Assembly (NCBI RefSeq): GCF_937146585.1
Contig: NZ_CAKZRO010000052.1
Location: 1-64,000, forward strand
Direction: 5' to 3'
Source of the DNA: an uncultured Halorubrum sp.
GTDB taxonomy: Archaea > Halobacteriota > Halobacteria > Halobacteriales > Haloferacaceae
Length of the DNA stretch: 64,000 nt
A program made the translations under genes and the position numbers. The notes under the pieces were generated by a model, which saw only the letters and a list, made by a program, of their open reading frames with translations, ran no database searches and was not told the DNA's origin. Positions 2,040-42,394 of this stretch are shown one piece after another (the stretch's first letter is position 1; each line of letters opens with the position of its first letter).

Positions 2040-3209
2040 CTAGTTTCCGGTCCAGCGCAGTATCGCCAGCGTCCCCTCGAAGAGGGCGATCATGGTGAGC
2101 GTCACGATGATCGGCGCCATCCCGGTCGGGTCGGGGCTGAACAGGAAGGCGATCCCGAGGAACGACCCCCAGAAGATCAGCCGCTTCGCCTCCAGCCACT
2201 GCCGGGTGACGAGGTTCATCATGATCGCGAGCATGATGAAAAGCGGGATCTGGAAGACGATCGCCATGAACGCGAGCATGATGACGATCAGGTTGAACGT
2301 CTCCGCGAGCCCGAAGGCGATCGTCGCGGCGTCGGAGGTGTAGGTGGTGAAATACGAGAAGATCGCGGGCAGCACGAGGAAGTGCGCGAACGCGATGCCG
2401 ATCCCGCCGAGGATCAGGCTGGTCGGGACCGCCGCGAGGTAGTAGCGCCGCTCGGTCTGGTAGAGCCCCGGGCGCATGAACCGGTACGTCTCGTAGACGA
2501 ACGCCGGGAGCCCGACCACGACGCCCGCGAGCCCGGCCACCTTCAGCTGGGTGAGCGGGAGTTCGAGGGGGCCGTACAGCCGCGGTCGGTTCTCCAGCGG
2601 CGCGGGGATGTGGTAGCTCCAGAAGTAGTTGATCAGCTCCGTCGACTCGGTGACGACGACGAGGGTAGCGAGCCCGCCGATGAGGAAGACGACCGCGAGC
2701 CGGCGCATCATCTCCTCGATGTGCGCGGCCAGCGGCATTTCCTCGTCCGTCTCCGGCCCCTCGACGCCCTCGAAGGGCTCGTCGTCGACCGCCGTCGCGG
2801 CGTCCGCGGGCGGCGTCTCCGCGGCCGTCGCCGGCGTGCCGCCGTCGCCGGCGGTCTCGGTGTCGTATCTCAGCGACGCGGCCGTGGCGTCGTCTGCGCC
2901 GGCGGCGGCCGCGTCGTCGTCCGCATCCTCACCGTCCGCGTCGTCGCCGACCGCCTCGGCGCGCGCGGCGTCCTCGGCGGCCACGACCTCGTCCGGTTCG
3001 AGCCCCTCGTCGGGGTCCGGATCCGGGTCCGCAGCCGCGTCCGGCTCGTCGGCGTCCGAGTCCGTATCGGCCGGCTCGGGGGCTCCGTCGGCGGACGCGT
3101 CGGTCTCGGACCCGCCTTCGACGGCGCCGTCGCTCTCGGGTTCGCCCTCGTCGGTCGACCCGTCAGCGGCGGCGGAGTCGTCGTCGCGCGACCGGTCCGA
3201 GTCGTCCAT
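2040..3209 (-). CDS. tatC1: Sec-independent (Tat) translocase subunit TatC, single-domain form
   Basis: TatC is the membrane receptor for twin-arginine signal peptides. Haloarchaea send most secreted proteins through Tat, and three predicted Tat clients are encoded in this window. The protein is 389 aa. Residues 1 to about 175 are a very acidic, low-complexity Asp/Glu/Ala/Pro region with no predicted fold. The TatC domain follows, beginning with an AAHIEEMMRRLAVV segment (equivalent to the N-terminal amphipathic motif of bacterial TatC) and carrying about six membrane helices. It is transcribed divergently from the double TatC gene at 3367, with a mirrored promoter between them (3234-3344). 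The acidic N-terminal extension is much longer than in bacterial TatC. Confidence 0.93.
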   Translation of the reverse strand: MDDSDRSRDDDSAAADGSTDEGEPESDGAVEGGSETDASADGAPEPADTDSDADEPDAAADPDPDPDEGLEPDEVVAAEDAARAEAVGDDADGEDADDDAAAAGADDATAASLRYDTETAGDGGTPATAAETPPADAATAVDDEPFEGVEGPETDEEMPLAAHIEEMMRRLAVVFLIGGLATLVVVTESTELINYFWSYHIPAPLENRPRLYGPLELPLTQLKVAGLAGVVVGLPAFVYETYRFMRPGLYQTERRYYLAAVPTSLILGGIGIAFAHFLVLPAIFSYFTTYTSDAATIAFGLAETFNLIVIMLAFMAIVFQIPLFIMLAIMMNLVTRQWLEAKRLIFWGSFLGIAFLFSPDPTGMAPIIVTLTMIALFEGTLAILRWTGN

Positions 3210-3233
3210 TCAGTTTCCCTTCGCGACCGGGCG

Positions 3234-3344
3234 GTTATCAACCTTTTCGGATAGCGCCGCCGCGCGGCTCCGTTCGACCCCGCTCGCCGAATCGGCCGGC
3301 GGGCGGGGCGCGCGTGAGCGCCCGCGGTCGAAAAGGTTGATAAC
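3234..3344. promoter_or_regulatory. Mirror-image divergent promoter between the two tatC genes
   Basis: A perfect 16-bp inverted repeat lies in this gap: GTTATCAACCTTTTCG at 3234-3249 and its exact reverse complement CGAAAAGGTTGATAAC at 3329-3344. Each arm reads as a purine-rich BRE followed by a TATA-like TTGATAAC pointing outward to its own gene. The TATA centres lie about 27 nt from the ATG at 3367 and about 29 nt from the ATG at 3209. That spacing predicts leaderless transcripts for both genes. The identical promoter arms suggest that the two TatC proteins are expressed together at matched levels; that last point is inference. Confidence 0.75.
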
Positions 3345-3366
3345 GGCGACGGCCCTCGCCCTCCGT

Positions 3367-5580
3367 ATGGCGAGCGCCCTCGACGAAGACACTCAGCAGT
3401 CGATCGCGGAGGGCCGCGAGACGGCGAAGGCGTTCCTTCGGTCGGTCCAGAAGGACCTCCAGAAGGTGTTCGTCGTCTTCCTCATCGGCTTCCTCGCGAC
3501 GTTCTGGGCGCTCCGGACGTACATCTGGGACCGGCTCCGGGAGGTGACCGAGTCCAACATGAGCGCGGCGGTCGCGGAGGAGGCGGACATCATCGCGACG
3601 ACGCCGTTCGAGGTGATCCTCCTCCAGGCGAAGATCGGGCTGATCGTGGGCGCGATCACCGCGATCCCGCCGCTGATCTACGTCACCCGCGACGAGCTGC
3701 GGCGGCGGGGGATGTGGCCGCAGTCGCCGATCGCGCGCTGGAAGATCGCGCTCCTCGGGCTGCTCTCGGCCGGCCTCTTCACGGCGGGCGTCTCCTACGG
3801 CGTGTTCGCCTTCTTCCCGCTGATGTTCGGCTTCCTCGCCGAGTTCGGCCTCGAGGCCGACATCCAGCCGACGTACGGGATCGTGATGTGGACGGAGTTC
3901 ATCGTCTTCCTCTCGCTGTCGTTCGGCCTCGCCGGACAGATGCCGATGATCATCACCGGGCTCTCGTACGCCGAGATCGTCCCGTACGAGACGTTCCGCG
4001 ACAAGTGGCGCTACGCGGTCGTCGCCATCTTCGTCTTCGGGGCCGTCTTCTCGCCGCCGGACCCGTTCACCCAGTTGCTGTGGGCGTTCCCGCTGGTGGC
4101 GCTGTACGGCTTCAGCCTCTACCTCGCGAAGCTCGTCGTCACGGCCAAGCGGAGCTCCGACCGGATCGACGTGCTCGGCGCGGTCCGCGACCACTGGAAC
4201 GTCGTCGGGGGCGCGGTCGTCCTCGGCGGCGGGCTCGTGTACGCCTTCTACGAGTACGGCGGCCGGACCGCGGTCAACGACCTCCTGCGGCTCGCGGGCA
4301 GCACCCGACGCTTCCTCGAACCCGGTGCCGGGCTCGGCGTCGACCCGACGACCGCGCTCGGCGTCTACGCCGTCCTGTGGGCGCTCGCGTTCGCCGCCGT
4401 CGCGACGCTGTGGGCGGTGTACACCGACCTCGACACCACGAGCGCGGGCTACCAGTACGGCGACCCGACCGCGATCGACGTGGGCGAGCTCGACGCCGCG
4501 GGTGTCCGGGCGGCCCCCGCGGACGCGTTCGCCGAGATGGAGGAGGACGAGTCGCTCGCGCTGGCACAGGCCGCGATGGACGACGACGACCCGGAGAAGG
4601 CGCAGGCGATCCTCGACCGCTTCGACGAGGCGACGGCGGAGAACGACGGTGACGGAGGCGGTGACGGCGACGCCGACGGTTCGGACGACGGCGACGCCGG
4701 CGACGGCGGGCTCGTCGAAAACGTCCAGAACCGGGGATCGCGGGCGAGCTCGACGTTCCTGGCCGAGCTCACCGACGGCAACGAGGAGGAGGCCGAAGAC
4801 GACATCGGCGGCTACTACAAGGACCTCAAGTTCATCTTCGACTCGCTGCGCTCGCGGTCGTTCCGGATCGTCGCCGTCTTCGGGGCCGTGATGGCGGCCG
4901 CGTTCACGTGGCTGTACCTCGGCGGCCTCGGCACCGTCCGCGGCGACCTCGAGCGGCGCGTGCCCGCGGAGATCGAGGGCGGGATCAACATCATCACCCT
5001 CCACCCGGTCGAGGCGCTGATCTTCATGGTGAAGTTCTCGGTGATGCTCGGGATCTTCGCCGCGTTCCCCGTCGCCCTCTACTACGCGTGGCCCGCGCTC
5101 CGCGAGCGCGGCTTCGTCGCCGGCCGGATCTACCAGGTGTACCTGTGGGCGGGCGCGCTCGGCGCCGGCATGATCGGCGGCTTCGCGCTCGGCTACGCGT
5201 ACATCGCGCCCGGCCTCATCGGGTGGCTCGTCACCGACGCGCGCCTCGCCGACATGATCATCACCTACCAGGTGAGCGACTTCCTCTGGCTCGTCATCTA
5301 CACGACGATCGGGATCGGGTTCCTCGCGGACATCCCCATCGCCATGGTCCTGTTGAACAACGCCGGCGTCCCGTACCACGTGTTCCGGGCCCGCTGGCGG
5401 GAGGTGACGATCGGGATCATGCTCGTCGCGGCCGTGTTCACCCCCGCGGACGTGATCACGATGTTCCTCGCGACGGTGCCGCTGATGTTAGCGTACGGCG
5501 TGGGGGTCGGCGTCCTCTTCCTCGTCACCTTCGGGGGTCGGCGGGACCTCTCGCCGCCAGCGGAGTTCATCGGGGAGTGA
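3367..5580 (+). CDS. tatC2: Double TatC translocase (TatCt, fused tandem TatC)
   Basis: A 737-aa membrane protein made of two complete TatC-like domains joined in one chain, the form called TatCt that is characteristic of haloarchaea. The first domain covers about residues 15-265. A middle region with two further membrane helices and an acidic Asp/Gly-rich linker follows (about 290-475). The second TatC domain begins near the YYKDLKFIFDSLRSRS segment and runs to the end. The ATG at 3367 is preferred over in-frame upstream codons because it sits 27 nt after the mirrored TATA box; an upstream start would run into the promoter and antisense tatC1. It pairs functionally with tatC1 for Tat export. 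No tatA gene is visible in this window. Confidence 0.93.
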   Translation: MASALDEDTQQSIAEGRETAKAFLRSVQKDLQKVFVVFLIGFLATFWALRTYIWDRLREVTESNMSAAVAEEADIIATTPFEVILLQAKIGLIVGAITAIPPLIYVTRDELRRRGMWPQSPIARWKIALLGLLSAGLFTAGVSYGVFAFFPLMFGFLAEFGLEADIQPTYGIVMWTEFIVFLSLSFGLAGQMPMIITGLSYAEIVPYETFRDKWRYAVVAIFVFGAVFSPPDPFTQLLWAFPLVALYGFSLYLAKLVVTAKRSSDRIDVLGAVRDHWNVVGGAVVLGGGLVYAFYEYGGRTAVNDLLRLAGSTRRFLEPGAGLGVDPTTALGVYAVLWALAFAAVATLWAVYTDLDTTSAGYQYGDPTAIDVGELDAAGVRAAPADAFAEMEEDESLALAQAAMDDDDPEKAQAILDRFDEATAENDGDGGGDGDADGSDDGDAGDGGLVENVQNRGSRASSTFLAELTDGNEEEAEDDIGGYYKDLKFIFDSLRSRSFRIVAVFGAVMAAAFTWLYLGGLGTVRGDLERRVPAEIEGGINIITLHPVEALIFMVKFSVMLGIFAAFPVALYYAWPALRERGFVAGRIYQVYLWAGALGAGMIGGFALGYAYIAPGLIGWLVTDARLADMIITYQVSDFLWLVIYTTIGIGFLADIPIAMVLLNNAGVPYHVFRARWREVTIGIMLVAAVFTPADVITMFLATVPLMLAYGVGVGVLFLVTFGGRRDLSPPAEFIGE

Positions 5581-5674
5581 GTCCCGCGCTCGACGCGGCC
5601 GACGGCGGGAACGGCCCCTCGCGGCCCCCGCGACCGACGACTATTCCCGCGCGCGCCCGCAACGGAGGAGTGAA

Positions 5675-29664: not shown

Positions 29665-29995
29665 TTTATAAATAGATGCGGTGGCGCGTGCCTCCGAGTG
29701 GCCGCCGAAGGCGGCCGCGAGGAGCACGCGCGAGGGAGTCGCTGGCTCCCGGAGCGAAGCGGAGGGTGCCAGCGACGAGGCTGGGGAGGCGTGAGGCGCC
29801 GTGCGGTCGCGGTCGGGCGGGACTCAAAGGGGCAGCCGGCGAGGCGGGCGCAGGCGACATAAGCACCGAACGAGGGAGCAACAGCGACAGAGTGAGGCGC
29901 GCAGCGAGCGTGCGCCCGCCTCGCCGGCTGGGGCTTTGGGAGTGTACGCCATCGATCTGCTGACAGCCGTTTATAACCGAGCGGCTGGTGATTGA
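29665..29995 (+). repeat. Copy A of a structured dispersed noncoding element
   Basis: Noncoding DNA between the transporter operon and the gene at 30093, related to copy B at 42067-42394. Stem I: GCGCGTG 29684-29690 pairs with CACGCGC 29725-29731. A bulged C and CTCC/GGAG (29692-29695/29721-29724) follow, then tandem GA/GA mismatches, a 9-bp apical stem and a GAA loop (29707-29709). Stem II: GTCGCTGGC 29738-29746 with GCCAGCGAC 29768-29776, enclosing GCGAAGC. Stem III: CAAAG 29825-29829 with CTTTG 29934-29938, an internal loop GGGC/GGGG, then a perfect 19-bp helix 29834-29852/29911-29929. A terminal hairpin CAGCCG/CGGCTG (29964-29969/29982-29987) has a loop containing TTTATAA. TTTATAA occurs near both ends. 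Bases 29725-29789 equal 42122-42186. U-G pairs fit the plus strand. RNA gene or hairpin-type mobile element is undecided. Confidence 0.8.
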
Positions 29996-38898: not shown

Positions 38899-38972
38899 GG
38901 GCCGGTAGCTCAGTTAGGGAGAGCGTCCGGCTTTTAACCGGACGGTCGGGGGTTCGAATCCCTCCCGGCCCG
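38899..38972 (+). tRNA. tRNA-Lys (anticodon UUU)
   Basis: A complete 74-nt cloverleaf without encoded CCA. The acceptor stem is GGGCCGG (38899-38905) paired with CCGGCCC (38965-38971). The D-arm begins GCTCAGTTAGGGAGAGC. The anticodon stem TCCGG/CCGGA holds loop CTTTTAA with anticodon TTT. The T-arm GGGGG-TTCGAAT-CCCTC is at 38948-38964 with one G-U pair, and the discriminator base is G. No intron is present. Pieces of its T-arm and acceptor sequence recur in the 180 bp downstream. Confidence 0.97.
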
Positions 38973-38974
38973 CT

Positions 38975-39150
38975 GTACTGTCGCGAGCAATATCGCGAGC
39001 GGTAGTGCTGTGCTGGGGAGGGATTCGAAGAGACCGGTCGCGCGCAGTGAGCGAAGCGAACGAGCACGTCCGGGCGTGGTTCGAATCGCGTCGCACCCGA
39101 CGGGTGCGACTGACCCACGCTCGCGTCGCTCGCGTGGATCCCTCCCGGCC
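38975..39150. repeat. tRNA-derived fragments and hairpins downstream of tRNA-Lys
   Basis: Noncoding DNA with three relations to the tRNA. First, GGGAGGGATTCGAA at 39016-39029 is a perfect inverted copy of the tRNA T-arm segment TTCGAATCCCTCCC (38953-38966). Second, a direct partial copy begins with GGTTCGAATC at 39078-39087 and resumes at 39138-39150 as ATCCCTCCCGGCC, identical to the tRNA 3' end. The roughly 50 nt in between form hairpins, notably GTCGCACCC-GAC-GGGTGCGAC (39090-39110). Third, TCGCGAGC is directly repeated with a 4-nt spacer near 38979-38998. Such debris is expected at a past integration site but no integrase is present. Confidence 0.7.
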
Positions 39151-42066: not shown

Positions 42067-42394
42067 TTTATAAACGGACCGCGGTGGCGCGTGCCGACGA
42101 ACGCCCGGAGGGCGTGAGTCGCACGCGCGAGGGAGTCGCTGGCTCCCGGAGCGAAGCGGAGGGTGCCAGCGACGAGGCTGGGGAGGTGTGAGGCTGCGGT
42201 TGCTGTGCGGTCGGGGTGGGGCTCAAAGGGGCAGCCGCGAGGACGCCGTAGGCGACGCAAGCACCACAGCGAAGGAGCGGTAGCGACTGAGCGAGGAGCG
42301 CAGCGAGCGTACGGCGTCCTCGCGGCTGGGGCTTTGCAGGTAGTCACCGTCGATCTGTGGTCAGCTGTTTATAAGCCAGCGGCTGAGGCTTTGA
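42067..42394 (+). repeat. Copy B of a structured dispersed noncoding element
   Basis: Related to copy A at 29665-29995 and built the same way. Stem I: GCGCGTG 42087-42093 with CACGCGC 42122-42128. The bulged C follows, then CGAC/GTCG (42095-42098/42118-42121), the GA/GA mismatches, and ACGCCC/GGGCGT around a GGA loop. Stem II: 42135-42143 with 42165-42173. Stem III: CAAAG 42224-42228 with CTTTG 42332-42336, the GGGC/GGGG internal loop, and a perfect 18-bp helix 42233-42250/42310-42327. Terminal hairpin: CAGCTG/CGGCTG (42362-42367/42380-42385), with one U-G pair. TTTATAA is at 42067-42073 and 42368-42374. Relative to copy A, at least four substitutions plus one base-pair deletion in stem III, and several changes in stem I, occur on both arms together. 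The element fills the gap between the KH-protein and thermosome genes and runs opposite to both. Confidence 0.8.

Follow-up and report, generated by a model that had tools for sequence, protein, structure and literature searches.

A derived match between facing tatC promoters in one Halorubrum clade, probably made by short templated copying

Template switching is seeded by a shared short inverted repeat, and its expected product is a longer, perfect repeat at unchanged length. In polyploid haloarchaea, gene conversion is the non-reciprocal copying of sequence between places; the haloarchaeal cases known to us concern whole genome copies or long homology. Quasipalindrome correction, or template switching, has been described in bacteria, yeast, and great apes (PMC8604942, PMC7954356, PMC3820800). 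Arm homogenization is described as the typical prokaryotic pattern (PMC7954356), and yeast arms were homogenized via template switching at short inverted repeats in a search that covered spacers of up to 70 nt (PMC8604942). For haloarchaeal core promoters, the motifs CGAAA and TTWT have been proposed, and 72% of the protein-coding transcripts of Haloferax volcanii are leaderless (PMC4983044).

The region between two divergent tatC genes of Halorubrum resembles these corrections in two respects: a short imperfect inverted repeat appears to have become longer and perfect, and a cluster of substitutions appears to have been copied off the opposite arm with the length kept. It differs in lying in an archaeon, in its spacer of ~42 nt (the yeast study extends to 70 nt), and in that a core promoter, not a coding sequence, was altered, by a mechanism that we infer. 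Compared with haloarchaeal gene conversion, it involves only 8 bp of homology and a tract of 8 to 16 nt, so that a template switch is the better fit. Mutations of this kind have been described before; the novelty lies in a clear case from an archaeon, resolved to a single branch, in which a core promoter was replaced. A literature search on template switching, promoters, and archaea returned only the yeast study, and no report on promoter homogenization or on Halorubrum tatC promoters was found, in searches that covered few subscription journals.

The window is the whole 64,000-nucleotide stretch of DNA that was analyzed, and the features of its tatC region are as follows.
2040 to 3209, minus strand: left tatC gene, 389 aa, with an acidic N-terminal extension and then a single TatC domain (open reading frame and profile match).
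3233, minus strand: first mismatch past the tract (C on the left, G on the right), the outer bound of the putative transfer.
3234 to 3249, minus strand: left arm, which would serve the left tatC gene as its core promoter; minus-strand sequence CGAAAAGGTTGATAAC, plus-strand sequence GTTATCAACCTTTTCG, with the reverse complement CGAAAAGGTTGATAAC at 3329 to 3344.
3234 to 3241, minus strand: TATA-like half of the left arm, TTGATAAC, confined to one clade, where it replaces CCTATAGT or CCTATAAT; minimal tract.
3242 to 3249, minus strand: BRE-like half of the left arm, CGAAAAGG, common to both promoters in the ancestral state.
3250 to 3328: spacer between the arms, 79 nt.
3329 to 3344, plus strand: right arm, which would serve the right tatC gene as its core promoter and is the presumed donor.
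3367 to 5580, plus strand: right tatC gene, 737 aa, a single chain with two TatC domains (open reading frame and profile match).

Both flanking genes encode TatC proteins, as the preliminary description of a divergent tatC pair had it. The left protein contains one TatC stretch (TIGR00945, 1e-31, 110.6 bits, which is below the curated cutoff of 132.7), and the right protein contains two (TIGR01912, 262.9 bits, above the cutoff of 192.6). We take the left gene to be the tatCo, and the right gene the tatCt, of the haloarchaeal literature.

The 16-bp perfect inverted repeat of that description was also recovered, with 16/16 bases paired between the arms. When the arms are extended to 3231-3249 and 3329-3347, 18 of 19 positions pair, with a single mismatch. 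In the window, the 16-mer occurs at up to three mismatches only at the two arms (and in none of 100 shuffled sequences), and the 2.7-Mb draft genome contains no further site at up to two mismatches. The window holds three inverted repeats whose arms match perfectly over 16 bp or more within 250 nt, against an average of 0.2 per 64 kb for 20 order-4 Markov sequences, and the tatC repeat is the sole AT-rich one of the three.

In each arm, a BRE-like CGAAAA block precedes a TATA-like box, both upstream of the ATG. The center of TTGATAAC lies ~27 nt from the start codon on the right and ~29 nt on the left, the spacings first reported. A BRE-like CGAAA and a T/A box ~25 to 29 nt before the start codon are thus present at both genes, which resembles the published leaderless haloarchaeal promoters, with their CGAAA-type BRE and T/A-rich box ~27 nt before the start codon (PMC4983044). 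The likeness has limits: TTGATA fits TTWT only in part, TTGATAAC does not follow TTWT letter for letter, and conservation at the right gene reaches far beyond that consensus (PMC4983044). The promoter-to-ATG segment is 46 nt long on the left in 52/52 Halorubrum rows (51 genomes), and its counterpart on the right is of constant length in 51 of the 52 Halorubrum genomes, namely those with a match. This constant spacing, together with the conserved ATG in relatives, supports starts at 3209 and 3367. Judged by its sequence, the inverted repeat would be a pair of outward-facing archaeal core promoters of the ordinary kind, each a BRE with a TATA-like box, and a leaderless BRE/TATA reading fits both their position and the published haloarchaeal motifs (PMC4983044).

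The two arms are not alike in most relatives. A scan of genome contigs gave 80 loci, and upstream regions were read for 79 of them (L038 is cut off). A uniform set was drawn from 52 Halorubrum genomes. The pattern for the left promoter matched 49 of them, the left arms of G037 and G049 were read from stretches, and the G013 contig carries no left arm, which leaves 51 readable genomes. The left core is TTGATAAC in 18 of these (the new state; 19 copies, as G050 has two) and CCTATARY in the other 33 (the old state, with the variants ACTATAGT in G043 and CCTATAAC in G034). Outside the new-state clade, the cores of the two arms therefore differ, with TTGATAAC on the right and CCTATARY on the left, whereas all 19 new-state copies retain 16/16 identity between the arms. 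Half-formed left cores were found in none of the 51 genomes, but the stem of the clade has no sampled side branch. Named species with the new state include H. californiense, H. ezzemoulense, H. coriense, H. distributum, H. sodomense, H. xinjiangense, H. tebenquichense, and H. trapanicum. H. xinjiangense (G050) has two tat loci, L010 on contig C15 and L011 on C9, which are identical over the compared stretch and could reflect either a duplication or an assembly effect.

A pattern search across the family detected the new left state in 18 of 170 genomes, all of them Halorubrum, and in none of the 118 genomes of other genera, albeit with a pattern that could miss genomes whose left promoter is more diverged. 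Inspection of loci from other genera likewise revealed no new left state. The old core, CCTATA(A/G), is held by nearly all other Halorubrum and by most of the other family genera examined.

The match between the arms is derived and arose once. In a tree that leaves out the promoters (right tatC plus uvrA, 55 rows of which 52 are ingroup, 4755 columns), all 19 new-state rows group together in a single clade (SH-aLRT 100), and one change of state suffices; the stem of this clade has a length of 0.060. The tree comes from a quick search with SH-aLRT as its only support measure, and its long branches, the outer old-state rows G029, G034, and G041, are not near the new-state clade. The tree of the left gene, built from 50 of 52 rows after omission of two short sequences, also recovers the new state as one clade (SH-aLRT 99) with one change.

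Fitch parsimony over the 46 columns of the left promoter placed eight changes on the stem, in columns 11, 12, 13, 17, 18, 20, 27, and 36. Five of these lie in the eight-column core, and every one of them is toward the base of the right arm. Elsewhere on the tree, the eight core columns changed only six times, which gives an expectation of 0.041 changes on the stem (Poisson P of ~1e-9). Three of the five changes are in adjacent columns, and these columns changed once elsewhere altogether. The change in column 20 also matches the right arm but column 19 does not, and the secure tract is thus columns 11 to 18. Columns 17 and 20 have a parent state that varies among relatives, and the tract count could thus be four rather than five. 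The BRE-like half CGAAAAGG (columns 3 to 10) changed twice in the whole tree. Eight of the 16 bp were therefore already common to both arms, and the old core gave way to the remaining eight at unchanged length; the two halves of the repeat probably differ in age, with CGAAAAGG shared earlier and TTGATAAC copied later. That two degenerate TATA boxes came to match by chance is hard to credit: some likeness is expected, given that both core promoters carry the same BRE half, but the other half differed and became identical on one branch, in a number of changes far beyond expectation, and the resulting 16-mer has no match at up to two mismatches elsewhere in the genome.

A second alternative is that point mutations accumulated stepwise under positive selection for a better left TATA box, good boxes being alike. 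Four of the five tract changes are transitions, so that their matching direction is by itself weak evidence for copying. The remaining 38 columns also changed more than expected on the stem (3 versus 0.6), which may mean that the stem branch was faster or longer than the tree indicates; even when the expectation is scaled five-fold, however, it reaches only ~0.2 in the tract, well under five. We consider the stepwise route unlikely because intermediates are missing from all 51 genomes, because a core so widely held across Halorubrum and other genera of the family can hardly have been a poor box, and because the new core equals its neighbor to the last base.

The right promoter supplies the only evident source of that sequence. 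This promoter is the stable one of the pair: AAGGTTGATAAY leads into the beginning of the right gene in 51 of 52 Halorubrum genomes, and the 14-mer AAAAGGTTGATAAC likewise occurs in 51 of 52. It is found once, at the right tatC gene, in 32 old-state genomes; twice in each of the 17 single-locus new-state genomes; four times in G050, with its duplicated locus; and twice in the old-state genome G049, where one copy is on another contig. As 50 of the 51 genomes with AAAAGGTTGATAAC have no copy of it beyond the tat promoters, good boxes do not appear to converge upon this sequence, and the facing promoter is indicated as the donor. When both strands are considered within 6.9 kb in the three nearest old-state loci (G018, G025, and G040), only the right arm matches the new left arm at 16/16, and the next-best sources match at 11/16.

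The same asymmetry is seen outside the family. In 20 stretches taken from 71 non-family genomes and compared by inspection, the right gene carries TTGATA in 20/20 and TTGATAAC in 16/20. By the same inspection, the left promoter is mostly TTATAGGC or TTGTAAGC/TTGTAAAC (plus strand), and the left form TTATCAACC is present in none of the 20. Given that the right core is kept and the left core is distinct beyond the family, the difference between the promoters is an old one, with the right promoter as the donor. Among these, L202, L203, L204, L206, L207, L209, and L210 (families f3 and f8) have TTGTAAAC or TTGTAAGC (plus strand) as the left core and retain TTGATAAC on the right, which indicates that replacement of the left core has also happened in other lineages.

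Taken together, the branch test and the unique donor strongly suggest a templated transfer over independent point mutations. The most probable course, in our estimation, is a single template switch at a short inverted repeat, or a micro gene conversion, after which ordinary purifying selection acted. Along the stem of the new-state clade, the left CCTATAGT or CCTATAAT became TTGATAAC, the exact core of the right promoter. Pairing would have begun at CGAAAAGG, the inverted repeat that the arms already had in common on either side of a ~42-nt spacer; DNA synthesis or repair would then have copied 8 to 16 nt off the facing arm before returning, and the copy would have been retained as a working promoter core, with each promoter thereafter under separate purifying selection. 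A prior imperfect inverted repeat is indeed present, as CGAAAAGG occurs in both arms of G018, G025, and G040. The change is a one-branch cluster of substitutions that makes the left arm the reverse complement of the right, and its new sequence has a single local source. These observations uphold the suggestion in the preliminary description of gene conversion between the arms, of which a template switch is the replication form; that it was a template switch specifically, rather than another short conversion process, we infer.

The geometry of the arms bears on this mechanism. Their inner distance is 42 nt in G018, G025, and G040, 33 to 93 nt over the 33 old-state rows, and 21 to 154 nt in the 19 new-state rows. 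An 8-bp shared arm with the old spacers of 33 to 93 nt makes a weak hairpin, which counts against a template switch. Spacers of the new state tend to be longer, at 61 to 154 nt in 18 of 19 rows (21 nt in G038) versus 33 to 56 nt in 29 of 33 old-state rows. In the nested genomes G015 and G046, the mismatched position corresponding to 3233 is G, so that one later matching base was gained and the repeat measures 19 to 20 bp in all; this extra base could be due to chance or to a second transfer.

We also considered whether the arms are held identical by a shared regulator or by a need for equal amounts of TatC. The 16/16 identity in all 19 copies from 18 genomes is what such a need would produce. 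Against it, the left arm differs from the right core in 33 of 51 Halorubrum genomes and in 118 of 118 genomes searched in other genera of the family, so that the idea of maintained matching expression, as put forward earlier, is not supported as a general rule. Right arms are equally invariant where they have no matching partner, and conservation within the genus is just as strong upstream of uvrA (found at 47 of 52 loci), which means that the invariance of the tat arms is by itself no evidence for coupling. The base adjoining the repeat differs in 17 of the 19 new-state copies, and steady homogenization is thus not indicated.

Nor do the arms covary. Across 16 genera, the within-genome arm distance was 5.95/16, compared with 6.23 when arms were shuffled among genera, and 10% of permutations were as low, so that the proposed coevolution had no significant effect. 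The comparison used 42 loci from 43 that were hand-chosen among the 80 (36 of these from other genera than Halorubrum); L065 had a right arm that could not be parsed and was left out, and the arms of Halonotius and A07HB70 are uncertain. The suggested shared regulator site fared no better, as AAAAGGTTGATAAC is restricted to the tat promoters bar the one extra copy in G049. With neither further targets nor coevolution of the arms, the pattern is not that of a shared operator, and we judge a shared regulator or need for equal TatC amounts to be very improbable. For a candidate regulon, the draft genome and the 52 Halorubrum genomes were searched, and the only extra 14-mer was the one in G049.

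Copying from the facing promoter would mean that a left core promoter otherwise frozen across the genus, and recognizable across the family, was overwritten in one step. It would be a mutational route to promoter replacement without a series of beneficial point mutations, and it cautions that co-regulation need not follow from identical promoter arms. Because both promoter states exist in close relatives, they offer a ready experiment on core sequence versus TatC levels. A broader proposal, which we offer as a rather doubtful conjecture, is that template switching has an inherent seed in the BRE half shared by the promoters of divergent gene pairs, and that a gene can thereby acquire the core promoter of its neighbor through a single mutation; here this would have tied together the basal expression of two export-channel genes in one Halorubrum clade.

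Several other elements were observed in the window. Upstream of uvrA (5610-5674), a block, GACCGACGRSTATTCCCGCGCGCG, is kept in nearly all of the 47 loci found (of 52) and is unlike the usual BRE/TATA promoter. A strongly folding hairpin element (CAAAGGGGCAGCCG ... CGGCTGGGGCTTTG) has copies at 29825-29936 and 42224-42333, with fold z-scores of -8.3 and -6.9 and perfect arms of 20 and 19 bp; the arms differ between the copies and pair within each. Its exact pattern occurs only in these two copies in the draft genome, and no Rfam family matched it at the gathering score. Lastly, the end of the tRNA-Lys gene (38899-38973) at 38953-38966 recurs in inverted orientation at 39016-39029, as 14 perfect bp 49 nt away, and resembles the remnant of an integration site.
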